A stretch of 64,000 nt of DNA, taken from contig JAEHOE010000009.1 of assembly GCA_016858145.1 (NCBI GenBank), positions 434,001 through 498,000 of the forward strand. The letters run 5' to 3'. Each line of letters begins with the position of its first letter. Position 1 is the stretch's first letter. Below are positions 366 to 62,229 of the stretch, piece after piece. The position numbers were made by a program, and so were the translations under genes. The DNA comes from Edaphochlamys debaryana (lineage: Eukaryota > Chlorophyta > Chlorophyceae > Chlamydomonadales). Under the pieces are notes generated by a model that worked only from the letters and a program-made list of their open reading frames with translations, searched no databases and was not told where the DNA came from.

Positions 366-2075
366 CTACACTCGTCTGGGCTGGCCCCTTCTGTCTGGAC
401 CTTCAAATCCAATCCATCTCACCAGCCTTTGCACATGTCTAGCACCCGATGGCCACTGATGGCCAAGCTCCCCCACGGACGACAGGTAGCTCGCCTCCCA
501 CAGCGCGGTCCACAGCTCCGGAAGGTGCCGGGCGCTGGCCGCCGCCGCCGCCACCTGGCTCGGGCTCATCAGCGGCCGGCTGCCCCACGCAGCGCCGCCG
601 CCCTCGCCCGGCCCCAGCTCATCCCTCAGCGCCGCAAAGTGGACCGCCGAGAGCGCCGCCAGCAGATCCGGCCGGCCCTGCCACAGCCCCGCCGCCGCCA
701 GGCCGGAACGCAGGGCGCTGACGTGGGCGGTCACCGCTGCGAGGGAGAGCGCCGGAGCCCCGGCAGCAGCGGAAGAGGAGGAGGCCGCGGAGGTCGAGCC
801 GGGAGGCGGCGATGGGGAAGGGAAACGGGGACGAGGTAACGCGAAAAGCAAGGCCAGCAAAGTACAATCCAAGCCCAAGCACGACTGGTGAGGTTCGGGC
901 GGCGGTGGTGGCGGGGGAAGGCGGAGCATGGCCGTGAGCCCCGTCAGCACGAGGCGTGTGTCCAGGAGGGGGGCGGCGGCGGCGCGACCGCAGGCCGCCT
1001 CGAGCGCATGTACCCAATAATGAGGGAAGGGCTAGCGTCAAAAGCCGAGAGGGTGGAGATGGACAGCAGAAGACAGCTCCGGCTGCAAGTTCTTTAAGAG
1101 CACACACATTCGTGCTCACCTGCTCTCTTCCGTGCACCACCTTGCCCAGGTTGGGATCCTCCACAGCCCACGGAGCCCGAACAGCAGCATCCGAGCAGCC
1201 TCAGCCCCCGCCCTGCCGCCTCCGTGCAGGCCCTCAGCAGCTGCCAAGTCCACCACATACACAGCCCCGCCCGCTGCTGCCTGCGCCTCCTCCCCCGCCA
1301 CCGGCGGCGCGTACAGGCACACGACCGCCGGCGCCCCGCCGTACGAGTGTACGGCGAGGCCCAGGTGCGTGCACGCACGGCAGTGCTGCAGCATGGCCGC
1401 CAGGGCGGGGGTGAAGGGGTCGAACATAACGCTAGCACACAGGAGCATGAGAGAGAGGTTAGAGCAGGGCAACACAAGTTAGGGCTCAGGGGCGGGGGGC
1501 AGGAGGGCGACACCCGGCGCCGTTGCGGCGGGTGCCTTTGCTCATTACCGGTGATGTGGGGGCCGCGGGGGGAAAGGGGCGACGACACGCACGTCGCCCG
1601 CCCTGCGCCGCCGCTGTACGTACCGCCGCACGTGCCGCAGTCCTGTCCTCAAGAGCTGCCGCCAATGTTGTGCCGCCGGCAGCGGTGGCAGGTGAGGCTG
1701 CCGTCACGCTCGAGGCGGCGCCCGCGGCGGCGGCAGTCGCCGTGAGGCACTGCTGGCCGTGATCGCCTCCGGCGGAGCGGCTTCACGGAGCCTTGCTTGG
1801 CTAGGCCGGCGCCCCGCAACGTCCGATTCGTCCAAGTGTCAGGGGTCACTTGTGGTATGGTGGCCGAAGAGATGCAGGGCGACAACCAGTGGGCCCAGGC
1901 AGTAGTGACATTCACCCACGGGCCCATCCTCTTGCTCCGTTCCCACGGACCACCCCACCTGCAGCCGTGCGGCGAACACGTCCGGCTCCTCCTCGCACAG
2001 CTTCCGCAGCTTTAGCGGGGGCTTGGCGGGGGCTTGGCGCCACTGGCGCCCCTACGCTTTGATACCAGCTCGCCC
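366..2075 (-). pseudogene. Decayed copy of the LOTUS-like / exonuclease-fold family
   Basis: This is a 5'-truncated relic of the family that fills the window. Reading down the minus strand, a fragment of one LOTUS-like module ends in LCEEEPDVF with a normal donor at about 1958. A degenerate version of the PDTWMVRL exon follows (about 1870-1430), then the exonuclease-fold core starting at [11 protein letters not shown] (about 1425-1130), and the C-terminal exon with stop at 366. Evidence of decay: a base is missing in the conserved GLRGLLEDP segment near 1150, so the frame is lost; the last exon has lost its AG acceptor (around 1010); extra sequence interrupts the Pro-rich region (about 830-900); a 13-nt duplication and missing sequence truncate the first module near 2030-2075. 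No start codon or upstream modules exist before the divergent gene at 2475. A rearranged functional gene is possible but unlikely. Confidence 0.7.
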
Positions 2076-2474
2076 AGACGCCGTGCAAAGCTGACAAGCG
2101 CGCGACCCGGGGCCTCTTCCAGCGCGCGAGGCGGCCGGCGTCATTGGGGGGCAGAGGGCAGGGCGGCGTGATTGCACGGCGCGGGGAGGGTGGGCTGGAT
2201 GGGCAGGCGCCGCGCAGGTGGTGACTGTCTCTTGCGACTGGCACGCAGGGCACGCCTTTGGCGTAAGGCGGTCGCTCAGAACGAAGACGCGACCTGTCGC
2301 GCGCCCACTCGTGAATTTCGTACTTGTTGAGATCGGACCGACTGCGGCCTTCCGAGCGCCTTTCTTATAGTATTTGTGCCAGTTGAACATAGTAGTATTG
2401 CACGCTCACATCCACGCCTTCGCCTTGGGGGCGGGGGGTATGCGGGGGGTAAAACTGGCAACCTCGCGACCGTG
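2076..2474. promoter_or_regulatory. Upstream region of the U-box/ankyrin gene
   Basis: This 400-base gap separates the broken minus-strand copy from the plus-strand gene starting at 2475. An AT-rich stretch with TTATAGTATT at about 2364-2373 is the only TATA-like sequence I see. It lies about 110 bases before the chosen start codon and would fit a core promoter. No other motif is convincing. Confidence 0.3.
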
Positions 2475-9326: not shown

Positions 9327-10270
9327 CTATCTAAGGCCAGCCTCCCCAATGCACGCCAGGTAGCTCGCCTCCCACAGCGCCGTCCACAGCTCGGGAAGGT
9401 GCCGGGCGCCGGCCGCCGCCGCCGCCACCTGGCTCGGGCTCAGCGGCCGGCTGCCCCACGCAGCGCCGCCGCCCTCGCCCGGCCCCAGCTCATCCCTCAG
9501 CGCCGCAAAGTGGACCGCCGAGAGCGCCGCCAGCAGATCCGGCCGGTCCGCCCACAGCCCCGCCGCCGCCAGGCCGGAGCGCAGGGCGCTGACGTGGGCG
9601 GTTACGGCTGCGAGGGAGAGCGACGGAGCCCCGGCAGCGGAGGAGGAGGAGGAGGCCACGAAGGTTGAGGGAGGCGGCGGGGGCAGGGGAAGGCGGAGCA
9701 TGGCCGTGAGCCCCGTCAGCACGAGGCGTGTGTCCAGCAGGGGGGCGGCGGCGGCGCCACCCCAGGCCGCCTCGAGCACTCGCACCTGCACGCCGGGGGC
9801 GCACGGATCGGGTAGAGTTTGTTCCAGGGTTTGTTCCAGGGTATGCGCTGTCCGCAAAAGAGGCCCCTAGGCCTTGGCCCCAAGGCACCCGTGGCTGACA
9901 GCCCCGCCCGTCCTCCCTCACCTGCTCTCTCCCGTGCACCACCTTGCCCAGAGCCGGGTCCTCCATCAGCCCACGGAGCCCGAACAGCAGCATACGCGCA
10001 GCCTCGGCCCCCGCCCTGCCGCCGCCGTGCAGCCCTTCAGCGGCACGCAAGTCCACCACATACACAGCGGCATCCGCTGCCGCCTGCGCCTCCTCCCCCG
10101 CCACCGGCGGCGCGTACAGGCACACGACCGCCGGAGCCCCGCCGTACGAGTGTACGGCAAGGCCCAGGTGTGTGCACGCACGGCAGTGCTGCAGCATGGC
10201 CGCCAGGGCGGGGGTGAAGGGGTCGGACACGACGATGACAGGGGCGGGGGGCAGGGCGGCGGTCGGAGGT
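9327..10270 (-). other. Exonuclease-fold region of the giant gene (pseudo-catalytic)
   Basis: The last two exons hold the 3'-5' exonuclease-like domain. Landmarks compared with the EXD1/Egalitarian consensus: strand 1 reads [11 protein letters not shown] where D-x-E is expected (A-x-H here). The helix after the insertion reads [18 protein letters not shown] where H-D-x-R-x-D is expected. The domain ends [20 protein letters not shown] where Y-A-A-x-D is expected. The conserved DTR after the second motif is kept. The alignment was made from memory of the family. Confidence 0.6.
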
Positions 10271-13200
10271 GCTGCGGCGGGGTGTGGCGGTGGTGGCGGG
10301 ATGGGGAGTGGAGGCGATGGCTGGTGGTGCGGCCCCAATATCGCCAGCCCCAGCTGAGGCTCCGGAGCTGGTACCGGCGGTACCGGCACCGGTATGGGGA
10401 TGGGCACTCTGCACCCGTGCGGTGACACGGTCAGGCCGTCAACGTGCGAGCTCCGCCCAGCCTGCGCCTGCAGAGCCTCCGGCACGGCTTCGCCCTCCCC
10501 TCCCACTGTAGCCGTTTCGGAGGATACCGCCGGTCCAGACACGGCCTCCGGCCGCTCCTGCTTGGTCTCTGCCGCCGGATGCAGCGCAGCATTCGACGCC
10601 GTGGCTTGGGCCGCCCCCATGGCGTGCGGCACCGCCGCTGCCGCCCTCGTTGCCGCCATCGTGCCGTGCTGGGTGTGCGGGGCTATGCCAGCCGCCGTGG
10701 CCTGGGCCGCCGCCAAATCCCTCGCCGCCTTCGCCTCGTCGCCCAGCCCCTCCCCAGCCGTCGCCGGGCCAGGCCGAGCTTGCACCCCCGTGCTTGCCCG
10801 CACCCCGCCCAGCGCTGCCAGCTCGGCGCACACCAATCGTACCATCCAGACACCGGGGGCCTGTCAGGGGAAAGGGGAGGGACGAGGCAACAATAGGTCA
10901 GGGCGCTGGGCACGGGACCCGGCACTGGACTGCAGGACGTTGGGTGAGGCGAATGATGGCAAGTGGGAGACAGGGAAGTGGCGAGAGCCCGACGAGGAAG
11001 GTTAGGAAGGAGCTCTTCTTTCCAGCGCACGGCTCAGCTAGCTGTGGGTCCGGCGGCAGACTACCTCGCAAAGGTCTCGTAATCCTTGCCTTGCGCCCAC
11101 CCTCCTACCCTGACCCGATCTCATCGGTGCATCCAGACCAGTATTCCTCCTCCGCTGAACCGCACCTGCAGCCACACCGCAAACACGTCCGGATCCTCCT
11201 TGCACAGCGCCCGCAGCCGCGCCACGGGCGGGCCCGAACCTCCCGCCAGCAGATGGGGCCACATGGTCTCGAGAACGGCATCCAGACTCAGCTCGTGCCC
11301 CGGCGCCATGGCCAGGCCCCGTGCCACGTAGCGCTTGGCCAGCATGCGGAGCCTCTCGGGCTCGAGCTCGGGTGCTGGGCCGGGCGTTGGGAAGCGCGCA
11401 AAGAGCGCCTTCCACACGTGCTTCTTGCCCCCAGAAGGTGCCGCGTTCTCAGCGGCACTCGGCTGAGGCCCGCTGGCGTTGCTCCGACTCAGAGCCCATG
11501 CGTTGGGGCTGGGTGGTGCGGCCATCGGCGCCGCCGTCGAGCTGCCGCTCCCCAGGGGCCCCGCCGGCGCTGCTGCGCTTGCCAGACCCCCCGATGCGGA
11601 TGGGGCTGCAGCGGTCTCCGTCGCTGCCCTGGCTGCCACCGCCGCCTCGCCCAGCCGGGCCAGTGCCGCCCACACCAGCCGTACCATGGGCGTGCTCGGA
11701 GGCTGTCGGGGATGGAGGAGATCATAGGTCACCTTTACAGTAATCCAGAATGGCCACATGTAACACCGGTCGTGGACTGCATCCTAGGCCCCACCCGCCA
11801 CCCGCCCGCACGCCCTCTCCACACGCACACACATCCAGCCCTCACCTGCATCCAGACGTGAAACACGTCCGGCGCCTCCTCGCACAGCTCCCGCAGTTTG
11901 CGGGGGGGCTTGACGCCGCCCATGAGCCGGGGCACCTCTGAGCCCAGGAAGGCGAAGGTGAGCTCGTGAGAGGGCGCCTCCGCCAGTACCTTTGCCGCCA
12001 GGCGCTTAGCGGCGTTCTCCGTGCGCTCGCCCGTTGCGGGGAAGCGCTCAGATAGCGCGTTCCACAGCTGCTTGCTGGGTCTGTGCATATCTGCAGCGCC
12101 GGCGGTGGCTGACGGAGAGCCGGCGGCGGCGCTATGGGCACCGACGGCCGCGGCCGCCGGCGGCTTCTCGCCAGCGAGCTCTGCCGCTGGCGCCACGAGG
12201 GTGGGGCACACCAGCCTCACCACGGCGTCGCTGGCACCCTGCAGCACGAAAGAGGAGCTACGATCAGGATACCGTGTGCGGAGGGCAGGAAGAGAAGGCA
12301 GCCAGAAAGTGAATGGGCTTGAATGGGTCAAGAGCATCGGCACCGCACACGCCCCTATCGTTGCGGAGTGCTCGCACCCCACCACGTGCCCCTGTGCCCC
12401 TGCTGCCCCTGTCATGCCCCACCTGTATGACCACACGGAACACGTCGGGCTCCTCGTCACAGAGCGCCCTCAGCTTGCCGGGCGGCTTCATACCGCCCGT
12501 GTGCCGGGGCAGCTCCGATCCGATCTGGGTCAGATGCAGCTGGAAGCGGGGTGGCGCCATGGCCAGGAGCCGAGCGATGCCCCGCTTCGCCGCCGCAACC
12601 AGACGAGTGCCGCCATCATCGGACTCGGTGTCTGGGGTTTTGGGTGGGGCAGGGAAGCGGCGGAGCAGGGCTTCCGAGAGCCGCTGCGCCGCGGACGTGG
12701 CAGTGCCAAAGCCGCTCGGGCCGGCCGCCATTGTCGCTGCCTGCATCTGCTGTGGGCTCAGCCGTGCCTGCTCCTGCAGGGTCGTCGGCCCCGACGGGCG
12801 CGAGCCCCCCTCAGGCCATGAGCCCGTGTCGGATAGGCTGGGCAGCTCCCCCTCGGCAGCCGCGGCCTGGGGCCCCGTGGTGCCGGCCGCCGCCTCGCCC
12901 AGCGCTGCCAGCTCAGCCCACAGCAGCCGCACCGCCCAGGTGCCGCGAGGCTGCGAGAAGGGGGAAGAATGAGAACGAGTTTGATAAAGGGCACACATAC
13001 CGTATAACGACAGGAGCGGAGCCCATTAAGACTGGAGCCCGTCGTTTCATCCTCGGCTACGGCCAGCTGGGTACAAGTGGTGGGAGTCTTTGCAGCGGCC
13101 ACTCGGCGGCCCCGCAGCCTGCCCCCAAACCTCTCCCACCTGCTCCCACACGGCGAACACGTCCGGCTCCTCCTCGCACAGCGCCCGCAGCCGCTCAAGG

Positions 13201-16200
13201 GGAGGGCCCGAGCCCGCGAGGAGCCGCAGATGCTCTGGTGCCGCACTCAGAAGGGCGCCTACGCTCAGCTCGTGCCCAGGCGCCGTGGCCAGGGCCTTGG
13301 CGACGTAGCGCTTGGCCGCCGCCCAAAGTCGTTCAGGCTCGAGCTCGGGACCACTGCCGGGAGAGGGGAAGCGGCCGATGAGGGCTGCCTGGAGCTGAGT
13401 ACTTGTGGCCGGCGCGCCACCCGAGCAGGCAGCAGTGGTGCTGTGGACAGCCGCGTTTCTCGTCGCCCCAGGGGCGGGCCCCGGGCCAGCGCCCCAGACC
13501 AGGCGCACCATGCAGTGCGTGGGCGGCTGCTGCGGGGTTGCAAGCCAGCCAAGCCGGGAATATCAATGCGGGCTGTGAGGGTTCAGAGCTTCATCTACAG
13601 CAGAACCATACATACGGGGCCCCCTGTCGATCCCTCCCTCCCACCCTCCCCACCTGCTCCCACACGACAAACACGTCCGGCTCCTCCTCGCACAGCGCCC
13701 GCAGACTGCGGGGAAGCTTGACGCCGCCCAAGAGCCTGGGCACCTCTGAGCCTAAGGACGAGAGGGACAGCTCGTACCTCGGTGCCCCGGCCAGCAATTG
13801 GGCGGCGGCGCGCTTGGCGGCGAGTGCGAGGCGGTTGGGGTCATTGGGGCTGAGCGGCCGGAAGCGGTGGACGAGTGCCGACAGAAGCTGCCCCTGCGGC
13901 GACGGCGCAGCAGGGGCGCGGCCGGCGCCGCCAGCACCTGCTCGTACCTCCGCCGCCACCGCCCCTGCTGCGGGCTGCCGCCCTGCCGCCGCCTCTGTCC
14001 CCTCCACTCCTTCCACGGCCGCCGCCCCTGCCGCCCGCCGCAGCGCCGCCACGTCCAGGCGAAGCCACTCCTGCCCACCGCTCGTGCGTCCCAAGCAGAA
14101 AGCGCCCCGGCTCCCGGGGGCGAGCAGGAAGGGCTTGAGCTGGGGCCACTTGTAGGCAGGGTTGCGCCACAGGCCTGAGCGGCATTGGCCAAAGCGGGAG
14201 GCGTCGGCACGCCGGAGGCAGTAGACAAGAAGATAAGAAGCGGGCGTTCAGCTCAACGCAGCTGCCTTAAAATCCTTTTGCCCCCCATCGCCTGCCTGCA
14301 GTGTCACCTGTGCAGTCCCCAGCAAACACACCAAGGCTGCAGCCCCTCCCTTATTCAGCTCCTCCCACCTGTGGGCTCCTTGCGCAGGTGAGTTACGAGC
14401 TGGGGCATGGCGCATGCCAGCTCCCCCGTGTGCGGCTGGGGGCTGGACGCGAGCCAGGCGGCGATGGCACGACGGACGACGTTCTCGGGCAGGCCCTGGT
14501 CCGACAGCCCATTGCCCGGGAAGGCCTGGGGGATAAGGGCCGCAAGCTCCGCAGCAGCAGCCGCCGCTGGTCCTGGCAGCGCTTTCAGCGCCGCCCTTGC
14601 CGCGGCTCCCTGCGCCGAAGGCACGGCAGGTTCCACTGCCGCTGCCGCCACCATGGCCTTGGCCGTCGCCGCTGCCGCTGCCTTGCCCAGCGCTGCCAGC
14701 TCGGCCCACACCAGCCTCACCCTCAAGGTTCCAGGGGGCTGCGAGGAATGAAGCCGGGATCACAGATGTGGAACAGAGAGCCGCATGAGGGGAAGCTCCC
14801 CAAGCCCCTCCCTGCTGCCTCGGCGTATGTTAAGTAAGAGCCTCCCAGTAAGAGCCTCCCACGAAGAGCAGCTCTTCTTCATGACTTCCCGCACTCTACC
14901 ACCCTCGTTCCACCCCACCTGCAGCCGTACGGCGAACACGTCCGGCTCCTCTTCGCACAGCGCCCGCAGCCGCTCAAGGGGAGAGCCCGAGCCCACTGGG
15001 AATCGCAGTTGCTCGGGTGCCGCGCTCAGAAGGGCGCCGATGCTCAGCTCGTGCCCAGGCGCCATTGCGAGGGCCTTAGCCACGTGGCGCTTGGCCGCGC
15101 TGCGAAACCGCTCCGCCTCCAGCTCGAAAGCAGCGCCCGGAAAAGGGAAGCGCGCAAGAAGCGCCGTGCGCAGGGCTCTCTGGGTGGCAGTGGCGCTGGA
15201 AGGAGCCGGCGGAGGCCTCGAGCGCGCGGCATGTGCCGTTGCCAGCGGGGCAGGCCTCGGGCCAGCGCCCAACAGCAGGCGCACCATGCAGTGCGTGGAT
15301 GGCTGCGGCGGGAGGGCCAACGAATACAGTGAAGTGATGTGAGCGATCAGAGCTAGGCCAGTCAATGCGGTGTGCTCTACTGTGCCATCCCACCAACCCG
15401 CAGCCTCGCTAGCCACCCACCTGCAGCCGTACGGCGAAAACGTCTGGCTCCTCCTCGCACAGCGCCCGCAGCCTTCGCGGGGGCTTGGCGCCGTTCAGGA
15501 CCCTCGGCACCAGCTCCTCCAGGCGCGCAAGGCTGAGCTCGCCAGAGGGCGTCTCGTCGAGGAGGAAAGCGACGGCCCGCTTGGCCGCGTTTTCGAGGCA
15601 CCGGGGGTCAGTGGGGGCGAGTGACGGAAACCGGCGCTGGAGGGCCTCGTGGAGAGACTCGCGCGGTGGCGACGGCGGCGGCGGCGGTGGCGGCGGCGGC
15701 GGCGGAGCAGCCGCGGCGGCACCCGGTGGTGGCGGCGGAGCGGCGGCTGTGGGAGCTGGTGACGTCACCAGCGGAAGCGCTTGCGTGGATGAGTAATCCG
15801 CCACGGTCCGTGGCGACGCCGCGTCCCCAGCCGCGGCCACGCCTGCCACGGCTGCGGTTTCTGATGACTCAGTGGCGGGCACCAGGGCAGCCGCTGCCAC
15901 CATAGCCTCCGCCGCGTCTGCCCCTATCGCTTCCACCTCCACGTCAGCCGCCCGCCGCAGCGCCGCCACGTCCAGGCGCACCCACTCGTGGCCCTTGCCC
16001 GCTTCGCCCCCCACCACAAACACGCCCTGGCTCTCGGGCGCGAGCAGGAAGGGCTTGAGCTTGGGCCACTTGTATGCGGGGTTGCGCCAGGGGCCTGAGG
16101 AGCATGAGCAGGCAGGTTGACAATGAGGGCACGATCAACTGACGATGAAGTGAAAATGAGGCGTGGCGACGCCCCTCTTGATTGGTGTACGGTTTCCCTC

Positions 16201-45953: not shown

Positions 45954-46050
45954 GGACCCAGGCGGTAGGGGAGAAGGCAGCCCGGGACCCAGGCAATAGG
46001 TGGGAAGCAACAGGTAGCCCGGGACCCAGGCCGTGGGTGGGGGAGGGCGG
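45954..46050. repeat. Three imperfect ~33-bp tandem repeats
   Basis: The unit GGGACCCAGGC(G/A/C)..TAGGTGGG...AGCCC occurs three times just after the retroelement tail, with a further decayed unit near 46138. Its function is unknown; it may belong to the element into which the retroelement inserted. Confidence 0.6.
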
Positions 46051-47070: not shown

Positions 47071-47077
47071 GGGGGCC

Positions 47078-47687
47078 CTATAGCCAGTGCTGCTATCTTC
47101 CTGGGGCTTGGCTCTTGGCTATGACCGAAAGTACCCCCTCCAGGGGCCGTGGCTTTCGGTACATGTGCACGAAAGTTGGCTTTCGCAGGCTTTCGGTTTC
47201 GGTACAAGGGGTTGGGAGGCCGTGTTGCAGCTGGCACATTCGTGCCCTGCACTAGGGCCCCTCGTCAGAAAGTGTTCCCCGCTACAGGAACCTTGATTCC
47301 TGTCCTTGCAGAGCTCAGAAGGCACACAGGAGGCACCGTGCGGTGCGGCGTTAGCATGATTGCCTTGTCGTCGGGAAGTGTTCCCCGTCGAGCAACCCCC
47401 CTGTAAACCCTGTCTCCTTGGCGTGCCAGCGCTCCGGGAGCGTGCAACTGACACCATGAACCCTTGTGCCGGGTAGACTTTGTCAGAAAGTGTTCCCCAG
47501 CTTGGCCCAGACGCACGAAAGGGGGTCAACAGGGGCCAAATCCTTCGGTACATGGGCACGAAACATGGTTCCGCAGGGGGAAATCCTTCGTGACCCCTGC
47601 ACGAAAGTTGCCAAAACGCTTTCGTGCAGAGCCCTCAGAATCGAAACTTGCACGAGAACGAAAGGAAGATAGCAGCACTGCCTATAG
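47078..47687. mobile_element. Inverted-repeat-bounded element, about 610 bp
   Basis: CTATAGCCAGTGCTGCTATC... at 47078-47102 is repeated in reverse complement at 47663-47687 with one mismatch over 25 bases. The similarity fades outward over another 15-20 bases. Inside, a GTCAGAAAGTGTTCCCC block occurs three times (about 47264, 47366, 47483) and several CGAAAG/CTTTCG motifs point both ways. There is no coding capacity. It could be a MITE or a folded satellite-like repeat; I found no target duplication. Confidence 0.55.
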
Positions 47688-48141
47688 CAAAGCCGTCGTC
47701 GACCGCACCCATGACCCGGGCTCGTCCCCTCGTCCCCTGGGATTGCACTTCGCTGGCCTTTCACGGTAACCTCGTCCCCGGTTCCCATTCCCCTTAGCCC
47801 CAGCGCGCACAGATGGGGGGTTGCGCACTCACTCGCCTCTGCCTGACCATGAGTACGGCAGGAACCCAAGGGTCTATTTCACAGCCCCGCTTCCGTACTG
47901 CCCGCCCGACGCAGCCCGACGCCCCTGAGTTCCAGGCCCGCTAGGCCCTCGTCCTCGCTCAGGCGACCCCCGCCTCTCGCGGGTCCCCTTCCCTGCCTCC
48001 GCGCCTCTCCTCTCACCTCTCCACACGGTAGCAACGCACGCTTCCTCTCCTGCTCGCTTCCTCAAGTCCGTCTCAGCCGCTCTCCTCGCCACTTCGCCTC
48101 CTCGCTCGCCTCCTCGCTGTTTCGCCTCCGTCCTCGGCCCC

Positions 48142-48265
48142 TCAGCGCTGGGGCGTCTTGGCCCTGCGTATCCGCTCCACCTCCTCCCGTACCGCCCGCT
48201 GCACCTCGGGCAGCTCCCGGGCCTTGCCGTCCCGCAGCACGCCCGCATCGATGATCTGGATCCGA
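48142..48265 (-). pseudogene. C-terminal exon remnant of an unknown gene
   Basis: Reading the minus strand after an AG at about 48266 gives IIDAGVLRDGKARELPEVQ and then a basic helix (VREEVERIRRAKTPQR) to a TGA at 48142. The sequence is clearly protein-like, unlike its surroundings. Upstream in the same frame there is a stop (about 48303) and no partner exon I can identify, so it looks like a stranded last exon carried within the insertion. I do not recognise the family. Confidence 0.4.
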
Positions 48266-49216
48266 GATTCGGGGGTCCAGAATCGGATTGAGGGCGGCGG
48301 CCATTAAGGGGGAGGAGTTGGTAAGGATCACAAAACCGATGATGATGTCAAGCTTTGTAACCGGGTCCGATGCTCCCGGGAGGGCCCTTCATGCAATCGC
48401 GTGGTATGGTGGCTTCGATCGAGTAGGGCCGTCGGTCGCTCGTGTTTCGCATCCCGAGCATCCGCGTCCTGCCTCGCTCGTTCCCCTCCCGGCCGCCTTC
48501 CCAACTCATCCGATTCACGCAGGATACACATGCCAAGGCTGGGCAGGCACCATGCTCTGGTCTCGGTCTTGCCGGCGGTCGTGCCTCCTCAACGGCGCTC
48601 TGGCGGCCATCTCGGGAGAAGGGGAGACCGGGACGCCATCCCGGCACCGACACGTCACGAGCTACATGACATTTCGTGGTCATTGGCTGTATTCATGTGT
48701 ACCGGTGTGTTAGCTAGCGGAGATGTTAGCGGCGTGCTGTGCATAGAGCATTTGGGGCCTTGCACGGGTCAAGGACCAGTGCTGCCGAGAGTACAGCAGC
48801 GGGCCCGCCGCGTCCCGCAAACAACACAAGCAACAACCATGACGGGCCCCAAATCATGCCCCGCATGTGATGCACGAAGCGCAGCGGCCTCTACTGACGT
48901 GTTATAGAAGTCCCGCTGGCGTCTTCTGGACGCACACCTGTCTTCCCAACATGCAGAATCCTGGGCCTAGCGCCGCGGGGCGGGCCCAAGCACTGTTTAG
49001 ACTGAACTTCCTTGAAGCTGGAGAAAAGGCCCGAGGCCTGAATGGGGTAGTCAATCGAACATGCGTGCGGACACGGTTCACAGCGCAGGGACGCCTGGGC
49101 GCTCCACGGGGTGTACGGGTCGGCGGATGGACTAGATGGACGCGCGCGAAACACATTCCACGCCGGCCCACGAACGAGCACAGCAGCTACTTCTTTTTGA
49201 AGGATTCCGTGTTGAA

Positions 49217-49584
49217 TTAGGCATAGCGCTCGTTCCGGGCTCGATCAGCGAGAATAAGCCGAAGTCGGCACCACAACCTCTTCGCGTTAACGTTGAGTGC
49301 ACGCAAAGTTGACGGAACTGCCTCGCTCATAGCCTTAAGCTGCACGCTGTCTCTTGATAGAAAACCGGATTGCTCCACGGCTGTGGTTGCAACTTGGTGC
49401 GCGCCAAGAATAACTACCTCAAGTTGAGGATTATACCCGTATATCATGCCATAGAAGCACGCAGGCGAGGGGTCCCAGTCTGGGCGGGCCAAGCGGCGAT
49501 CGGTATATAGAGATGTACATGCCATACCAACACGGCCACGCGGCGAGCGAGGCGTACCAAAGTATGGGGTGCATAATATTGTTG
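49217..49584 (-). CDS. Unknown open frame inside the insertion
   Basis: After a TAA the frame reads RPTILCTPYFGTPRSP..., with an ATG at 49525 (MACTSLYTDRRLARPDWDPS), then FYGMIYGYNPQLEVVILGAH and LRALNVNAKRLWCRLRLILA, ending RNERYA at 49217. It uses far more AT-ending codons than the host genes and is rich in aromatic and aliphatic residues, so it looks like real but foreign or ageing coding sequence, perhaps a transposon protein fragment. No motif assigns it. Confidence 0.4.
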
Positions 49585-50016
49585 GTCTTTAAGGCCACTC
49601 CTGTAGCCTTAGGATGTTGTGGGACAGGGCCGGGCTGGGCCTGAACTGGGTACGCCCGTGCTAGATCGGACGGGCCGGATGGACCCTGGGATGGACCTGG
49701 GACCCCCTAGACCCCCAAGGCGCCTCACGGGCAAGACTGCCACTTTTAAATAACTGGACGTAAGCAACGCACCTACTGTTGGAGCTCGGAAGTTTCGTGG
49801 TGCAAGCCGACATGGGCAGGGTAGGTGGGCCTGGCCGTGCCTGGCTAGCGGGGCATGCACATCGCCGTACGGGCCTGGTGGAGGCAGGCCCGCCGTGTCG
49901 CCATATAACCTGCAAGCTTCACAGTCAATGGTCAAACCGTGAACATTGCTTAGTCGACCCGCTGCCGGCGACGAGCAACCGCGAGCCTCGTCCGAGCTCA
50001 GCGAGCGACCATTGCG

Positions 50017-50883
50017 ATGGCATCAACCAGCGACGCCTCAGCGACTGTGAAGCCTGAGGCTGTGGAAATCAAGGTCGAGGATAGCACCTCGAATGTGGTA
50101 GCGGAGCTGAAGAAGGCCAACGAGGAACTGAAGAAGGCAAACAAAAAGGACCCCAAGCCCTTGCCGACGGGTATCAAGCCACGCCGTGAGCCATTTCGCG
50201 GCCTCTGGGGAGGGATGTGCACTTAATGCAACAGCATGGGCTTTAGCGGCTGGTCATTGGGGCCGCCGAGCGACTTGTTGCGACGACCCTTGCCCACCTT
50301 GATCGATCCCGTGCCCTCGCCCTCCCCGCGTGCAGGCCTCCTCCTGCCGGTGCTTGTGTTGTGCATCATGACGCCCATTCTCCTTGGCATCTGCCTGCCG
50401 GTGAGGCATAGCGGAAGGCAAAGGCCGCCGGCAGGCGGAAGGGGGGAATATGAACTGGCCCGGGGTAACCGGGGAGGGGGCGCGGGGCCGGCGTGGGCAT
50501 GCCGTTGACAGGATCCTGCGTTCGCCCTGCAGACCTTTTACGCTGCGAAGAAGGCCCGCGATGACGAGATGACGAGCTCGTCGTTCATGTGCAACCTGTA
50601 CGCGGACGACAAGCAGGCAAGTCGGGGTGGGCCCCCCAAGCCCCCATGTACCCAGTCCGCGGCTCCGGCCTGTGTGCCCGATGCGAGAAGCAGATGCGGT
50701 GATTGCATGGCCTCAAGGGCGATGGTGGTGCCCTACCTGACGCGCGAGGGGATGCGGCTGCGCAAGGCACGCAAGGAGGTGTTTCGGACGCTGGTGGAGA
50801 AGAAGATGGAGCCGAAATGGGTGGACGGGGCGGGGATCAGCGTCGTCGGTGACGACGGCAAGCGCGTGCGATACGAAGGCTAG
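50017..50883 (+). CDS. Small coiled-coil / single-span membrane protein, unknown
   Basis: Three exons, 50017-50185, 50336-50400 and 50533-50883, join in frame to 194 aa. Exon 1 carries an acidic start and a Lys/Glu heptad run (VVAELKKANEELKKANKK) and ends at a strong GTGAGC donor. Exon 2 is one hydrophobic span (LLLPVLVLCIMTPILLGICL). Exon 3 is soluble and basic (RLRKARKEVFRTLVEKKMEP) and ends GDDGKRVRYEG. Without splicing the first frame stops at 50223. The exon 3 segment after YADDKQ could hide a further GC-AG intron. The gene lies within the insertion, so it may be cargo. I do not recognise the family. Confidence 0.5.
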
Positions 50884-51010
50884 CTGGACGGTTGTGAATC
50901 TTGTGATGACGTTTCTACGTCGGTGCTGAGGCAGGACGTTGATTGGGGCTCATGAAGCCTTTTGGCTCGTTTGGGCCCCGCAGCCATGAAGCTGTGTAAC
51001 GATCATCATC

Positions 51011-51567
51011 ATGGCCTCAACGCTCCGCCCTGGACAACCATCTGCGCAGGCGGCACTGGTCCAGAGGTACAACGCCTTCTCAATCCTCCAGGTGTGTTCC
51101 CCGCTAGCTCCATGCACTCCATGCGCGCAAGGCTTCTATCCTCGCTCCCCGCACGTTCAGCCCAAACTGGGCCACCTTCTGCCCTCTGTCACCAACCCGG
51201 CCTGTCCCCCTCCCTCCAGGACGCCTCCACGGCCATCCCGCGGCCGCCCTCACCTCCAAACCCGCCCAGCCCTCCCGCCCGGCAGCAGCAGCCACGCAGC
51301 CAAGCTCGCCCGCCCACCCCCCCGCCGCCGCCTCCCTCCCCCCCCGTTGACGACATGTACAAGCGGGCCTACGAGAACCTTGTCAAGGTGCGGGAACCGA
51401 CGTCCAGCCAATGGGGGGTGGGGTGCGCATGGAGGGAGGCTGCCACAGATCCAAGGGGCCGATTGCTGCTTGCCCCGAGGCACGTCACCTCACGACGTGT
51501 GTCCGTACCCCTCCGCTTGCAGGCTGAGGGGCAGTACTTCAGGGAGCTCGCGCAGACGTGCAATGTG
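51011..51567 (+). CDS. 5' exons of an unknown gene, truncated by the insertion boundary
   Basis: Three phase-0 exons are visible: 51011-51091 (MASTLRPGQPSAQAALVQRY...), 51220-51387 (a Pro-rich run PPSPPNPPSPPARQ, then DDMYKRAYENLVK) and 51523-51567 (AEGQYFRELAQTCNV), the last followed by GTGAGA. The next acceptor-like site is the CCCCAG at 51683, which is already the broken LOTUS-family exon; splicing into it from phase 0 shifts that exon out of frame. The gene therefore seems cut off inside its third intron by the insertion boundary. Function unknown. Confidence 0.45.
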
Positions 51568-54500
51568 GTGAGACGCGTGAAGGGCAGAAGAAGTCCCGAT
51601 GAGGGGAGGGCACGTGCGGGCCCCTACCCGCCGCTTGCTTCCTCGCTCTGCACCCACGCACCTACCTCTCCCTCCCTCCCCAGACACCGAGTCCGATGAC
51701 GGCAGCACTCGTCTGGTTGCGGCGGCGAAGCGGGGCATCGCTCGGCTCCTGGCCATGGCGCCTCCCCGCTTCCAGCTGCATCTGACCCAGATCGGATCGG
51801 AGCTGCCGCGGCACACGGGCGGGATGCGGCCACCCGGCAAGCTGAGGGCGCTCTGTGACGAGGAGCCCGACGTGTTCCTAGTGGCCATACAGGTGGGGCG
51901 ATTTGCACAGGGCCTTCCCCCAACACGCGGGGCATGCAGGGTGCCTGGTGCGTGACATCCCCTCCTGCCTCCTGACATCAGCCCTGGCTGCCAGTAACCG
52001 GCGGCGTGTGTCCTTTGCCTCATAACGCCTCCGTGTTGGTCTGCTCTGTAGGGTGCCAGCGAGGCCGTGGTGCGGCTGGTGTGCCCCACCCTCCTGGCGC
52101 TAGCGGAGGAGCTGGCAGGCGGGAAGCCGGCGGCAGCGGCCATCAGAGCGGGCAGCGGCGCCGCCAGCCTACCGTCAGAAGCCGCCGGCGCTGCGGGCAT
52201 GCTCACCCCCGGCAAGCAGCTGTGGACGGCGCTGACCAACCGCTTCCCAGCGGCCCTCGGCCCGAACGCGGCGCCGGGCGAGCGCACGGAGAACGCCGCT
52301 AAGCGCCTGGCGGCGAAGCTGCTGGCGGAGGCGCCCTCGCACGAGCTCACCTTCGCCTTCCTGGGCTCAGAGGTGCCGCGGCTCATGGGCGGCGTCAAGC
52401 CCCCGCGCAAGCTCCGAGAGCTGTGCGAGGAGGACCCGGACGTGTTTTACGCCTGGATGCAGGTGAGGGCTGCTGGATGTGTGTGCGTGTGGAGGCAGGA
52501 CGCGCGGGTGGCCTTAGGTGGGGCCTAGTCTGCGGTCCACTGCCGGTGGTGCATGTGGCCTTGGTGGAACGCACGGGGCAGAGTGCGTATGTACTCGGAA
52601 GCCTCCGGTGCAGGGCCTACCCGCACGCACAATGCACCCGGGGTCTAGGCTGCAGTCTTCAACCGGACGGTACCTGTGTACGGTAGCGTCTACCAGCAAA
52701 GGCAACGCGTTCGTGTGAAGGCAGATGTCCTTTGCCCCCCTCCTGTATGTGCCTCCCGACAGCCCCCGAGCACGCCCATGGTGCGGCTGGTGTCGCCAGC
52801 ACTGGCTCGGCTTGGGGAGGCGGTGGTGGCAGCCAGGGCTGCGGGGGAGGCCGCTGCCGCCCAACCCGGATCAGGGGCTCTGGCAAGCGCAGCAGCGCCG
52901 GCGGGGCCGCTGGAGAGCGGCAGCTCGACGGCAGCGCTACCTCCGGCGAGCAAGAAAGGGTTTTACAAGACCCTCTTTGCTCGGTTCCCCGAACCCGGCA
53001 AGGCGCCGCACATGGAGCCCCTGCGGTGCCGGATCATGGCCAAGCGTTACGTCGCCCGGGGCCTGGCCACCGCGCCGAGTCACGAGCTACCGCTGGACAC
53101 CATCCTCCAGACCATGTGGAAACACCTGCTGGCGAACGGGACGGGATCTCCCGTGGAGAGACTGAGGGCGCTGTGCGAGGAGGAGCCGGACGTGTTCTCC
53201 GTGTGGCTGCAGGTGAGGAATCCTTCAGACGCAGCGGGCGATTGCCCAAGGAGGTTTGGGTGCCGTGCAGTGAGGCGGAGGGGGGGAAGCTGTTGCGGTT
53301 TGGCGACCAGGGAGTGAAAAGTCGTCAGATGCAGTGGGCGCTTGCGCAAGGAGGCGTGGGTGCTGTGCAGTGCGGTGCCTGATACATATTGCGGCATGAA
53401 CGGGCATGGACATGGGCAAAGAGGGACAAGGCCCCGAGCCGCCGTGCTGCTACCTTTGCGGTGCTTTCACCCAATCAAATGCCTCCTTCTCGGCTCCCTT
53501 CCCCGCTCTTCGCAGGTGCCCGGCACCTGGATGGTGCGGCTGGTGTGGGCCGACCTGGTGGCCCCGGCGGGAGAGGCGGCGGCGGGCACCACGGGGCCCC
53601 AGGCCGCGGCTGCCGAGGGGGAGCTGCCCAGCCTAGTCGACACGGCGTCATGGCCTGCGCTGGCCTCGCGCCCGTCGGGGCCCGCGACCCTGCAGCCGCC
53701 ACCGCAGCCGCGCCCAAAACAGGTGCCTGTCGCTGGGCAGGCACCGGCGCCAGTACCAGTCCCGGTGCCAGTCCCGGTGCCGGTGCCGGTGACCGAGCCG
53801 GCGCTTGACGCTTCGACGGAGCCGCTCCTCCCTCAGCCCCTCGTCCTCGTCGTGTCCGACCCCTTCACCCCCGCCCTGGCGGCCATGCTGCAGCACTGCC
53901 GTGCGTGCACACACCTGGGCCTTGCCGTACACTCGTACGGCGGTACTCCGGCGGTCGTGTGCCTGTACGCGCCGCCTGCGCCGGGGCCGGAGGCGGAGGC
54001 GGAGGGACCGAGAGCGGCCGGCGCTTTGTATGTGGTGGACGTGGCGGTTCCTGAAGGGGGGATGGCGGGGGCGGAGGCTGCTAGGATGCTGCTGCTCAGC
54101 CTCCGTTCGCTGCTGGAGGATGCGAACGTGGGCAAGGTGGTGCACGGACGGCAGCAGGTGAGCCCGAGTCTTCTTCATTCTAGTGTGACTGATTTTAGCG
54201 CGGCCTCTTCGCCGCCTGACGCTGGCTCTTCTCTCTTCTCCTAGGGTCCTTGGGTGTTCACCGCCTCTTCTGTGCTTACATACCCTTAACCGAGTATGAC
54301 CCGATCTGTGCGCCCCCGGCGTGCAGGTGCGAGTGCTCGAGGCGGCCTGGGGTGGGGCCTCCGCCGCCCCCCTGCTGGACACACGCCGCGTGGTAAAGGG
54401 TCTGGCAGCTATGCTTGACCTGCCGCCGCCGCCGCCTCCCTCGGCCAGCTCTTCGTCTTCCGCTGGGGCTTCGTCGCTCTCCCTCACAGCGGTGACCGCC

Positions 54501-54773
54501 CACGTCAGCGCCCTGCGCTCCGGGCTGGCGGCGGCGGGGCTGTGGGCGGACCGGCCGGATCTGCTGGCGGCGCTCTCGGCGGTCCACTTTGCGGCGCTGA
54601 GGGATGAGCTGGGGCCGGGCGATGGCGGCGGCGCTGCGTGGGACAGCCGGCCGCTGAGCCCGAGCCAGGTGGCGGCGGCGGCGACCAGCGCCCGGCACCT
54701 TCCGGAGCTGTGGACTGCGCTGTGGGAGGCGAGCTACCTGGCGTCTGTGGGGGAGGTGGAGATGAGGCAGTAG

Positions 54774-55744: not shown

Positions 55745-58700
55745 ATGGCAAAGGGTCTTCAGCTCAGCACGGCGGAGGCGGAGGACCTCATCCCCCGAGC
55801 CTTCCCGGGGGACAAGCTGTCGTACCAGGGCCTGCCCGAGGCCGCCGTCCGTCGAGCCATCGCCGCCTGGCTTGCAACCAGCCCGTATCAGGGAGCCTCT
55901 CCGCTCTCTGCCCGTCTGTCCAGCGTCAGCCCATTCCTCTGTGGGGAGCTGCCAGGTAGGGTGTCACTGCAAACAGGCTTGCCTCACGCATGCCCTTCGC
56001 ACGTCGCCTCGTTTCCACTCAACCCGCCTGCATACATGCTCCGCAGACTTCTTCGCCCAGCCGAGGCACAAGCTGTGGTTCAATAAGTTATTCCTTGCGC
56101 CGGAGAGCCGGGGCGTGTTCGTGGTGGAGCAGCCAGAGCCGGGGGGCGCTGTGTGGGTGCGGCTCGACGTGGCGGCACTGCAGCGGGCAGCGCGAGGCTA
56201 CTGCGACCCACCGCCACCGCCCTCACCAGCGGACTTCCCCGCGCTCCAGGCCGTCTCGGTCGCTGGCAGCAGCCACCGCCCCGCAGCACCAACACCACCG
56301 CAGCAGGCCCCGGAGTTCCCTCCGCATCCTTCCAGATGCCTCCAGGCGGCCTTGCGTGACCGCCTGCCGCTGCCCCTCTCCACCGGCGCCGCTGCTGCTG
56401 AGTGGGAGCTGGCGCCTGGCCCCGAGCTCGAGGCCGCGCGCTGCCGGGTAACCGCTAAGCGCTACCTGGCAGAGGTGCTGGCGGCGGCCCTCCCCGGCCA
56501 CCAGCTCACCCTCGCGGCTGCCTGGGAGCGACTGCCGCAGGCCCTGCGCTCGAGGTTAGAGCTGGAGGGAGGCGGCTCGGGCCCGCCGCTGGAGCAGGGG
56601 AGCGGCGGGGCGGTGGGGAGTCTGCGGGCGCTGTGCGAGGAGGAGCCGGACGTGTTCGCCGTATGGCTGCAGGTGCGGGCGGGAGTGGTGGAGTGGTGGG
56701 GTGCGTGGAAGGTGGAGGGCATGGGAGGCATTCACGCACCTCCCCCCTCCCTCCCCAGCTCCCCAGCACATGGGTGGTGCGGCTGGCATGCGAGGAGCTG
56801 GCGAAGCTGGGGGAGGAGGCTGCGGCTGCCGCCCAGGAGGCGACGTCAGCAGCTGCGACGGGCGTCGAGGCAGCTGATGACGCGGACGACGCCAGGGCGA
56901 GCTCCGCGCGTGGCGAGGCCTCTGCCGCTGCAGCCCCTCGCCCTGTCCGCGTCCCCGGGTCCGTCGAGGCGGGGGCGGGCCTCGAGGACACCCCGTCGCC
57001 ACACCCCGTCGGTGAGGAGCCTAGCCCCGAGGGCGCCCCGTCGTCGCCTGCAGCAGCCATGCGCGAGCTCATCGCTGCGGCGTTTCCCGGCGGCGGGCTG
57101 TCGGCCCGGGGCCTCCCCGAGACCGCCATGCGCCGCGTCATTGCGGCACGCCTCGCCTCGAGCCCCCAGCCGAAGTACGGCGAGCGCACCGCACTGCTGC
57201 CGCAGCTCGGGGAGTACCTGCGCCATGAGCATGCGGGTGAGGCGGGTTCAGAATGAAGGGGCGGGCTGCACCCCATGTCCTAGCTAGCCGTAAGGGTAAG
57301 GCCAGGTGCTAGGGGAGCCACTCAGTTGGTCCTAACACGCGTCTCACCCCGACACTTCGGGGCCGTCCCGCAAGGCACGTGGCTCAACGCGGCGTACACC
57401 TGGCCGAAGCTCTGCGCCTTCCTGCTCGCCAAGGAGAGCCAGCAAGTCTTTGCGGTCGAGGCACGCCAGGAGGGCAGGAGTGGGCTCGCCTGGACGTGGT
57501 GGCGCTGCGGCGGGCGGCGGCGGCACGAGCAGGTGCTGGCGGCGCCGCTGCCGCCACCTCCGCTGCCGCTGTCGCTGCCGCTGCGCTGGCTGGAACAGTT
57601 GGGGAATCGGCGATACCGCTGGCGGAGGCTGGAGAGGAGGCTCGAGCAGCGGCGACGGTGGCGGAGACAAGAGACGCCGGGGACCCAGTCGGAAAGAGGC
57701 GGAGGCGGAGACGGGGACAGAACCTCGATAGCTCCGAAGCGGCGGCGGTGGCGGACACAGAAGCAGGGGATGCCGGTCCGTCGACGTCCTCGGGCGCTAC
57801 CCACCCTGTCGTAAGGGAGCGGGGTGCTGCAGCGGGGCCTGCTGCGGAGGCGATGGAGGAGGCCGCCAGCCCTCCCATAGCAATGGGGCAGCCGGCTGTG
57901 AACCCTGCAGAGCTGGTGCCGCTCATCCCCCGGGCCTTCCCGGGCGATGGGCTGTCGGCCCAGGGCCTGCCCGAGGCCGCCGCCCGTCGAGCCATCGCCG
58001 CCTGGCTCGCATCCAATCCCTGCCCGGGCCTCGCGCCCCACGCCAGCAAGCTAACACACCTCGGCGACCACCTCTGCAGCGTGTACGCAGGTGCGCATGC
58101 TTCACTTATAGTCGCTCCTATTAGCCTCGCTCAGGCGTGCGCGGGAATGCCTTCAGCATTGATGGCACTTAGCATGCTTGTGCCGCTTTGCCCTCATCAT
58201 CCAGACGTGTGGCACGATCCCGCCTACGCCTGGCCCAAGCTCAAGACGTTTCTGCTCGCGTCCGCTAGCCAGGGCGTGTTCGTGATTGAGGGCACGCCGG
58301 GAGGGCAGGAGTGGGTCCGCCTGGACACAGCGGCTCTGCGGCGGGCGGCGGCGGCGCCGAGAGCGGTGGGGGCAGAGGCGGCAGCGGCCGAGCTGCCGAC
58401 GTCGGCAAGCGCAGCGACCGCTAAGGCTCCGGCGGCGAGGGCTGCGGCTGGGGCTGCGGCTGGGGCCGTCATGGCCGCAGCGAGCGTGAGGCTGACCCAG
58501 GCCCTCGCGCGGCGCTTCCCCCACCCGGAGCACGGAGACGCCGCCAACGCGGGTCTGGCTGCCTCGGCCAAGCGAGGCATAGCCCGCATCCTGGCCACGG
58601 CGCCGCCACCGCACTCCATGCTCCTTGGCACCGTGGGCGAGGCGCTGAACCGCATGCTGGGCGGACCCGGGCCTGCGGGCAAGGCCGGAAGGCTGCAGAA

Positions 58701-61700
58701 GCTGTGCGTGCAGGAGCCCGACGTGTTCCGAGTCACGACGCCGGTAAGTACGGGTGCCGCGTTGCGAGGGCTCACACTAGCCGATGACTGCAGTAGTATC
58801 CCAAAGGCGCCCTGCACCCTGCACCTTGCATGCATCCTGCTGAAGGGCCCTTGCTGTAACTCCCACACAGCAGGGCGTTGGCACCGTCTATGTGGCCCTC
58901 GTGTGCCCCACCCTCCTGCCGCTGGCGGCGGAGCTTGCAGAGGCCGAGCGGTCAGCGCCCGCGGCGGCGTTGGTCAGGGCCAAGTCTGCAACGGCGGTGG
59001 GGGCAGCGATGGCGGCCGGTGCGACATGCCCACACGGCGCCGCCGCCGCCGCGGCCGCCCCCGTCCTGCCCTCGTCCCAGGAGCAGCTGCAGACCGCCCT
59101 CCTCAGCCGCTTCCCGCCACTGGGCTTCGATGACCCCAGGAGCCTTCCACGCGTCGTCAAGCGAGCCGTCGCGCGCCTGCTGGCCGGTGCACCGGGGCAC
59201 GAGCTGAGCTCTGCCCGCCTGAGGGAGCTGGTGCCGGTGCTCCTGGGAGGCACCAGGGCCCCAGACGAGCTGCTCACCTGGTGCGAGGATGAGCCGGACG
59301 TGTTCGGTGTGTGGCTCGAGGTGCGTTACTATGGAGCCGGACTGACGTGGGAAAATGCGGGGCAGCCGGGGCTACAACCTGTAACTACAACCTGTACTAT
59401 CCCCGCGACACGACGTGAGGTAAACTCCTGCTGCTTACCTGCCGCAGCCGCCGAGCACATGGACGGTGCGGCTCAGGTCGGAGGAGCTTGCCCGGCTGGG
59501 CGAGGCGGCGGCGCCCAGCGCTGCGGTATCGCCGCATTCGCCGGTGGGGGCCCCGGAGGAGGAGGACGTTCGTGACCTCATCGCCCGGGCGCTGCCCAAC
59601 ACCCACGCCCCCGGCAAGGTCCCGTCCAACCTGCTCCGTCGTATCGTGGCGTCTTGGCTGGCTGGCAGCCCGGACCCCAGCGTGGGGCCGCTCGCGGCGC
59701 TGCTGCCCAGGCTGGGAGACCACCTGCGGACGGAGCACGCGGGTAAGAGCGCGAGGCCGGCTGGGGCTCGAGGGGAAGAGCGAAGGGTAGTGAGGGCACT
59801 GCGCAGCCGGGAGAGAGAAAGAAAGAGTTAGACCCGCTTCCATTGGGTGGAAGGATGCACTGAGCACGCCCGCTCCCGCCCAGCGGCATGGCTGCTGCGC
59901 GTCCCTCGGCACCCCGCTCGCTCGCTCGTGCCTTGCCCTAGCTCACCTCGGCTTCTCAACAGCTGCCCCTTGCTCGCCCGCCTCAGGCCTATGGCTCAAG
60001 CGCAGGTACGCCTGGCCCAAGCTCAAGACCTTCCTGCGGGCAGCCGAGGGCAAGGGCGTGTTCACCGTCGTGCGAGAGCCGGGCGGTCGGGAATGGGTGC
60101 GCCTGGACACAGCCGCGCTGCGGCGGGCGGCGGCAGCAGAAGCAGCAGGAGGAGCAGCAGCCACCACCGCAGCCTCCTCCGCAGCCCCGGGGACGCAGTG
60201 CTCAGCAGCGCCTGCCGCGACTGCTGCCACCACCGCGCCACCAGCCACGGCCATGGCGCAACCCGCCGGCCGTGCATCTTCGGCATCGGCTCCAGCCGCC
60301 GCCGCTGCCGCCCTGCCGTCACCCCAGGAGCAGCTGCAGACGGCGCTTCGCAACCGCTTCCCGCCACTTGGCCCCAACGACCCCAACCGCCTGGCGCACG
60401 TTGCCAAGCGCGCTACGGCACAAGTGCTTGCCGAGGCTCCGGGGCACGAGCTGAGCTTCGCGCGGTTGGGCGAGCTGGTGCCGAAGCGAATGGGCGGTGA
60501 GAAGCAGGCGCGAAAGCTGCGGGCGCTGTGCGAGGAGGAGCCGGACGTGTTCGCCGTGTGGCTGCAGGTGAGATGGGTGGGAGAGAAAAAGGGCGTGCGG
60601 GGGTGCGTGATGGGACCTTCGCTGGGCCCGTGCCGCCCTGTTTCACTCTGGCCACTCTGGCGTGTCTCCACTGCAGCCCCCTGACACCTGGATGGTACGG
60701 CTGCTGGGGGGTGCCGGAAGCCTCGAGGCCGCTCCGGCGGAGGCGGTCGGGGCCACTGGCAGTGCCACTGCTGCCGCCGCCTCCAGCGTGACGGCACGCG
60801 CACCAGCCGCCGTCGCTGATGGCGGAAGAGCAGCGGCAGCGGAGGCAACCGAAAGCGCGGTCGTGGGGGGTGACATGGAGGCCGCCCACATCCACAGCGG
60901 GGCGGCGGCCCTAGGCAACGTTGCCGTTGCCATCAGCGAGACCTTTGCCGTCCAATTCCCGCCGCCGACCCTGCATGGTGTGCCTGTGCCCATCCCGGTG
61001 CCGGTGCCGGTGCCGGTGCTCGAGGACCGGCCCTCGCTCGCGCCCCTGGACCTGGACGTACCATTACTGGGGTGGGCAGGGGAAGCGGCCACTCCAGCCG
61101 CCGCCCTGCTCCCTCAGCCCCTCGTCCTCGTCGTGTCCGACCCCTTCACCCCCGCCCTGGCGGCCATGCTGCAGCACTGCCGTGCGTGCACACACCTGGG
61201 CCTTGCCGTACACTCGTACGGCGGGGCGCCGGCGGTCGTATGCCTGTACGCGCCGCCCGTGGCGGGGGCGGTAGAGGCAGGAGTGGCGGGGGTGGAGGCG
61301 GCGGGGACGGGAGCGGACGTGGCCCAGGCGGGGGCGGGGACGGAGGCCGCGGCGGCGGCTGCGATGGGCGCGGGAACGGAGCTTGGGGAGGCAGAGGTGG
61401 CGGCAGCGACGGGCGCAGCGGTTTACCTGGTCGACCTCACAGCCGCCAGGGAGCTCCACGGCGGCGGGGAGGCGGGGGCGGATGCGGAACGCATGTTGCT
61501 GTTCGGCGTGGGCTCGCTGCTGGTCAACGCCGGAATCGAGAAGGTGGCGCACGGACGGTGGCAGGTAGGCAGGGCCTGTGTGGGGTCTGTGTGGGCTTGG
61601 GGAACGGAAGAGGGTGATAAAACACGTGCGGACACTGGTTCGCGGGTTCCTGATCTGACCTTTGCGAGCCACACCTTTGCCAGTCCCGCACCTTGACTAG

Positions 61701-62229
61701 GCGAGTTGGCTGCACGGCTCAGACGGTGGTTGAGCGCCCGAGCCCTGCCTTGGCCTGGCAGATATCTGCGCTCGAGGCGGCCTGCGGTGGCGTCGTCACG
61801 ACCCCCCTCCTGGACACACGCCGTGCAGTCAAGGGGTTGGCGGCGATGCTGGACCTGCCGCCGCCACCGCCGCCGCCTCCCTCCTCAGCCTCCGCGGCCA
61901 CCTCCTCCTCCGCTGCAGCCGGGGTTTCGCCGCTCTCCCTCGTAGCGGTGACCGCCCACGTCAGTGCCCTGCGCTCAGGCCTGGCGGCGGCGGGGCTGTG
62001 GGCGGACCGGCCGGATCTGCTGGCGGCGCTCTCGGCGGTCCACTTTGCGGCGCTGAGGGATGAGCTGGGGCCGGGCGAGGGCGGCGGCGCTGCGTGGGGC
62101 AGCCGGCCGCTGAGTGCGAGTCAGGTGGGCGCGGCGGCTGCAAGCGCCCGGCACCTTCCCGAGCTGCTCGTTGCTCTGCTTCAGGCCTGCTATCAGGCCA
62201 CAGCAGGAGACCTGGGCTCACGCCGATGA
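55745..62229 (+). CDS. Multi-LOTUS-like / exonuclease-fold protein with one frameshift
   Basis: Ten exons: 55745-55955, 56047-56672, 56759-57236, 57375-58090, 58205-58743, 58874-59320, 59448-59742, 59987-60567, 60677-61564, 61762-62229. Phases agree except in exon 4, which is one base short: GAGGCACG near 57460 where the sister exon at 58290 has GAGGGCACG. With that base the product would be about 1,749 aa. This copy is richest in the AFPGD/GLPE...WPKLK module (four), alternating with four of the [14 protein letters not shown] type. One first-type module is atypical (HKLWFNKLFLAPES). The exonuclease fold has a longer Ala/Gly insertion (GVAGVEAAGTGADVAQ...) and a divergent second motif (EKVAHGRWQ). 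The acceptor at 58871-58873 is a NAGNAG, so one Gln may vary. The start at 55745 (MAKGLQLS) matches the short N-termini of the relatives. Confidence 0.75.
57456..57466 (+). other. Single-base frameshift in exon 4
   Basis: Two G are present where the sister exon has three. Before this point translation follows TWLNAAYTWPKL...FAVE; after it, WARLDVVALRRAA is in the neighbouring frame. Confidence 0.7.

Follow-up and report, generated by a model that had tools for sequence, protein, structure and literature searches.

A gene cluster in the green alga Edaphochlamys debaryana that putatively encodes Egalitarian-type, non-catalytic RNA-binding proteins

Egalitarian, MARF1 and the algal cluster

Egalitarian, known as an mRNA-transport adaptor of Drosophila, is described as a single chain in which three LOTUS-like domains are followed by an exonuclease-homology domain (ExoHD) (PMC13186709). 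In that description, the RNA pocket is formed by ED1, ED2, the ExoHD and XAD around bent stem-loops, and the putative catalytic residues lie ~15 Å from the RNA and are dispensable for RNA binding and function. The one paper found to link Egalitarian with LOTUS domains dates from 2026. The stretch of DNA analysed here (the window) comprises 64,000 nucleotides of Edaphochlamys debaryana (assembly GCA_016858145.1, contig JAEHOE010000009.1, positions 434,001 to 498,000, forward strand; contig C9 below). It was found to contain, at 366–62229, seven homologous loci (g1–g4 on the minus strand, g5–g7 on the plus strand) that are part of a gene cluster of ~85 kb and that may encode proteins of a comparable design. 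E. debaryana is called unicellular, and the genes of its assembly were annotated by BRAKER with RNA-seq (PMC8226300).

In g2, in g5 and in P0003, P0005 and P0006, which are annotated proteins of the window's contig, N-terminal LOTUS-like modules and a C-terminal ExoHD were found in one polypeptide. The order is the same as in Egalitarian, LOTUS-like winged helices on flexible linkers and then an RNase-D-like ExoHD, and Egalitarian structures (PDB 9RVY, 9RW3, and 9RW4) were among the top matches for both the module and the C-terminal parts. The reading made earlier from the sequence alone (the sequence-only reading) had held that no system of this form was described, which is incorrect, as the layout itself is known from Egalitarian (PMC13186709). 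New here are its presence in a green alga, the up to ten modules, the about 20 loci and the probably dead exonuclease domain. No report of such algal proteins was found in the literature searched on LOTUS/OST-HTH, Egalitarian, Chlamydomonas and green algae, and the main text of the 2010 OST-HTH paper contains neither 'Egalitarian' nor 'RNase D' nor 'Chlamydomonas' (PMC2848206). Compared to the three LOTUS-like domains described for Egalitarian (PMC13186709), the window proteins have 4–10 modules of two types; besides, the testable catalytic acids are lost and the algal genes form clustered multicopy families. The likeness may stem from a shared ancestor, or two widespread folds may have been fused independently; the sequences are too little alike to tell these apart.

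Drosophila MARF1 is described as containing one RRM and six LOTUS domains (PMC6168497). The algal proteins resemble MARF1 in the long tandem LOTUS string within one RNA-regulatory protein, but MARF1 has an RRM in place of the RNase-D-like ExoHD. Mammalian MARF1 carries an NYN nuclease. No Pfam family of any kind, RRM and NYN included, was matched at E ≤ 1 in P0003–P0006 or g5. To our knowledge, EXD1, Nibbler and other RNase-D-like proteins contain no LOTUS string. A lineage-specific tandem expansion of RNA-binding proteins is also seen in a related alga, C. reinhardtii, where the NCL proteins are of another domain type, helical repeats. On chromosome 15, the NCL cluster is described as having 32 genes or more (PMC8226300). 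The DEDDy ORFs of bdelloid retroelements were set aside as a comparison; by their description, the invariant residues are intact there except for a change of DEDD to DEED (PMC5408684).

Modules and C-terminal domain

Comparison of all open reading frames (ORFs) in six frames against each other, together with hidden Markov models (HMMs), showed that the family consists of two repeating modules, A and B, and one two-exon C-terminal domain, which was detected whole or in part at seven places of the window. This agrees with the sequence-only reading, which had reported seven copies on both strands, and its up to ten modules per protein were recovered in g2 (8 A and 2 B). The A module has a core of ~81 residues and a last strand encoded by the next exon, and the B module spans two exons, which a phase-1 intron separates in the gene models built. 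The set carried on comprised 25 A modules or fragments, excluding the fragment 27070–27180 and the front part (41314–41361) of an interrupted module, and 10 B modules. Thirteen of the 25 were picked as seeds of the A HMM, with which full-length A modules scored between 6e-40 and 1e-17; a seed-free BLAST recovered the same module family. In a splice-junction scan, 20 of the 25 A modules had an in-frame acceptor ahead of their final wing strand; these resume after a phase-0 intron with x-VRL; a 21st acceptor listed at 58489 is spurious. The five others are two relics and three modules of g7, and in the latter the junction is read across in the NCBI protein P0006. The splice junctions are conserved among the copies.

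AlphaFold2 models compared with the PDB placed the A module beside the LOTUS structures of TDRD5, TDRD7, Oskar, and Egalitarian, which indicates that A modules fold like LOTUS domains of the winged-helix type. Because the VIA structure matches listed for the first model are limited to A modules, it carries no weight that the B module is missing from them. For the B module, the predicted topology is H-H-H-E-E, and a profile comparison with A gave a P of 0.045 (score reached by 5 of 100 shuffles), so that B can only tentatively be called a LOTUS-like winged helix from its predicted topology. The claim of LOTUS-like modules thus holds for A on predicted structure and stays provisional for B. No spliced module (0/20) and no full protein (0/5) passed the curated cut-off of Pfam OST-HTH (PF12872); a six-frame search with PF12872 matched no control genome either and carries no information. 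Nothing meaningful was returned by Pfam for ten window ORFs, P0001–P0002, seven ExoHD members, the 20 modules and the five full proteins, and PDB sequence and profile searches gave chance-like rows only. Routine annotation would miss the family, because in none of the proteins scanned was either half recognised by Pfam.

By the same approach, the C-terminal domain was placed, with modest scores, near the RNase-D-like exonucleases Rrp6, EXD2, Exd1, and Egalitarian, and its profile alignment to RNase D beat 60 of 60 shuffles. The models thus assign it a DEDD exonuclease fold of the RNase-D/EXD1/Egalitarian type, and the outcome that the sequence-only reading had named as refuting it, modules that are no winged helices and a C-terminal domain without an RNase-D-like fold, did not arise. 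The four acidic catalytic residues of RNase D were not recovered. The position of D28 is Ala in all 15 sequences, and that of D85 is a non-acid in all 15 (V/A/T/C/Y/N/F; Gln in the RNase D profile alignment); E30 falls in a gap, and D155, which has no reliable alignment, is by eye Asp in one of the 15 (P0002). Since the testable catalytic acids are gone, the domain is read as a probably dead, RNA-binding fold. Of the EXD1/Egalitarian-like nuclease proposed earlier, the fold is therefore retained and the nuclease is not; an active RNase-D-type nuclease was rejected, activity through an unrelated metal site being possible. In the relative P0002 (491 amino acids, aa), Asp occupies the motif III position; the protein begins with a stretch resembling the end of a B module, so that a truncated gene model is probable.

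Proposed function and alternatives

We consider it fairly probable that the products of the cluster are RNA-binding proteins of the Egalitarian type without catalytic activity. Each window protein would be a flexible string of winged-helix modules, the A type LOTUS-like, with low-complexity linkers between them, and would end in an RNase-D-like ExoHD without catalytic acids. Several modules and the dead ExoHD may jointly grip structured RNA, such as stem-loops or G-rich RNA, by analogy with the LOTUS-like domains and the ExoHD of Egalitarian; the target would be set by number and subtype of the modules, and recurrent duplication would have produced related readers that differ in their arrays. 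The most likely function is that structured RNA is recognised without being cut, and cooperative gripping is the best supported mode because the algal proteins share Egalitarian's order of parts. How module number sets RNA specificity could be tested on natural variants, since there are copies of 4, 8, and 10 modules whose ExoHDs are closely similar.

Several observations weigh against such RNA readers. The hhalign probability was low, and the ExoHD was acidic in five of five copies. No annotated protein was returned for g5 by two protein-database searches whose length range covers it (relatives were searched within limited protein-length ranges); g7 is the sole window copy matched to an annotated protein. 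The lack of an annotated g5 protein and the low hhalign probability slightly weaken the RNA-reader interpretation and slightly raise that of a decaying array. Furthermore, Egalitarian is a binder of BicD and ends in a region of four helices, XAD (PMC13186709). XAD is probably absent from the algal proteins, as suggested by the VIA alignment of the end of P0001, which stops at Egl 728 (9rw3_D); g5 ends 22 residues past the last ExoHD motif, RHLPEL. The dynein light chain motif [STV]QT was present in none of the six proteins P0001–P0006. BicD/dynein transport is an unlikely output here, because BicD is known as an animal protein.

The acidic ExoHD would also suit an alternative that we regard as unlikely, namely that the strings are protein-interaction scaffolds whose modules recruit a helicase, in the way that LOTUS domains recruit Vasa, or other proteins and build a ribonucleoprotein granule, with the ExoHD as structural platform. 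The tie of cullin WHB and other winged helices in VIA Z favours such scaffolds as well. However, Vasa-recruiting proteins have few LOTUS domains, and it is Egalitarian, with its string and ExoHD, and MARF1, with its long string, that the algal proteins resemble.

A different role, recognition of foreign or transposon RNA by a fast-turnover repertoire in which different arrays recognise different invaders, appears improbable, although family size and copy turnover fit it. With the C domain of g2 as query against the 141.9 Mb genome, at least 42 exon matches were found (21 on C9, nine on C65, seven on C166, three on C46, and one weak match each on C187 and C4; all counts are lower bounds). By position, these group into about 20 ExoHD-bearing loci on four contigs (10 on C9, seven of them in the window, five on C65, four on C166, and one on C46) plus the two weak ones. 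In a midpoint-rooted tree of 15 rows with two long branches (seven rows from C9, three of the five C65 loci, three of the four C166 loci, P0001 and P0002), the sampled copies of C9, of C65, and of C166 were each recovered as one clade with support, and all 13 rows from E. debaryana fell together. The expansions look local, because the copies of each contig form their own clades. Birth and death are visible within the window. The three A modules nearest the C-terminus, like the ExoHD, are positional counterparts in g2, g5, and g6, and the N-terminal arrays differ among these copies and are likely to include intragenic module duplicates. All 38 pairwise dN/dS values (nonsynonymous to synonymous rate ratios; taken over the two C exons, A modules at three positions, and a single B exon) were below 1 (range 0.21–0.82), these being averaged rather than site-wise values from non-independent pairs that share sequences, with g1, g4, P0003, and P0005 left out. 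Since all are below 1, the copies, including g3 and g6, are judged from their sequences to be kept as proteins under purifying constraint. The self/non-self role by a diversifying cluster that had been suggested thus gains nothing from averaged dN/dS, even though copy and module number vary, and averaged diversifying selection is not supported. Besides, NCL in C. reinhardtii is a further RNA-binding family that has expanded in tandem and whose function is unknown (PMC8226300).

That the array is mostly decaying, so that only one or two genes still work among pseudogenes and nothing has been added to the ancestral function, is highly improbable: the relics g1 and g4, the frameshifted g3, the interrupted g6 and the lack of a returned annotated protein for g5 point to it, but g2 and g5 have open frames and undamaged splice sites, P0003, P0005, and P0006 are annotated, and dN/dS is below 1 for g3 and g6 too.

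For the RNA readers favoured here, the occurrence of the layout in a green alga raises the question whether this architecture serves RNA recognition in general and preceded its use in transport. It is a tentative and rather doubtful extension that LOTUS string plus dead ExoHD is an ancient RNA-reader design predating animals and Egalitarian's coupling to BicD/dynein, which in E. debaryana would have become an expandable reader repertoire, exon-encoded modules being added and lost to give new RNA specificities.

Individual copies, the g6 insertion and further loci

The window was found to hold seven homologous loci rather than seven intact genes (Table 1); g2, g5, and g7 look intact. The model of g2 comprises 2,049 aa in 12 exons with 11 GT-AG introns and a single terminal stop. 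In g1, the C2 part has no AG acceptor in front, and in g4 a weak B fragment was detected at 27698–27817 (E = 0.017). The g5 intron after the A module 37234–37665 has a GC donor at 37666–37667 instead of GT (CAG before and GCGAGT after the junction).

Table 1. Positions of the seven loci, their ExoHDs and the g6 insertion in the window; module order is given from N to C terminus
Feature	Position	Strand	Content
g1, relic	366..2128	-	C2 part 369-1013; C1 part 1161-1430, frame broken after it; fragments of A modules 1956-2128
g2, complete gene	9327..17335	-	A-B-A-A-B-A-A-A-A-A-ExoHD
g2 ExoHD	9327..10233	-	C1 9922-10233; C2 9327-9785
g3	19116..24947	-	B-A-A-A(frameshifted)-A-A-B-ExoHD; frame lost inside A module near 22846
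g4, relic	25393..27817	-	C2 3' fragment ~25414-25647; A module 26337-26597; A fragment 27070-27180
g5, complete gene	36344..39941	+	B-A-A-A-ExoHD; 956 aa, 6 exons
g5 exons	36344-36527, 36682-37154, 37234-37665, 37813-38430, 38608-39279, 39450-39941	+	
g5 ExoHD	38959..39938	+	38959-39279 and 39450-39938
g6	40714..54773	+	B-A(interrupted)-A-A-ExoHD
g6 insertion (~10.3 kb)	41361..51683		inside first A-module exon; lower G+C
g7	about 55745..62229	+	B-A-B-B-A-A-B-A-ExoHD; one B module damaged near 57460
g7 ExoHD	61130..62229	+	61130-61564 and 61762-62226, stop to 62229

Contig C9 carries the NCBI proteins HYH03_003349, HYH03_003357, and HYH03_003358. Of these, HYH03_003357 (P0006; 1,680 aa) corresponds to g7, with a match of 95–99% over P0006 residues 782–1649; its annotated C-terminus departs from the open frame of the window near its end, where the last residues differ. 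The neighbouring protein P0005 contains three modules.

The insertion in g6, after which an open frame of 719 aa follows, carries an RNase H ORF at 44124–45743 (+; PF00075, E = 5.7e-11) and a 921-aa ORF at 41358–44120 (+) without Pfam match, in which no reverse transcriptase was found by Pfam. No terminal repeats were found for the insertion, which is probably a retroelement judging from its ORFs. A transposon origin of the cluster genes themselves was rejected, as they are spliced and constrained and only this insertion is retroelement-like.

Outside the window, P0004 (HYH03_005705; C20:221–243 kb) belongs to a region with modules on both strands and no ExoHD detected, a module-only branch of the family. 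No LOTUS module was detected by HMM in P0001 and P0002, whose gene models may be partial. On C65, a differently built cluster of the family was seen: at 85 kb (L078), a B module is read through without the usual intron, and at ~98–108 kb B-type modules lie in open frames of great length, the longest 2,293 aa. Within the window, the ORF at 30489–31457 (-), which lies between g4 and g5, encodes a G-patch domain (PF01585, E = 2.8e-8).
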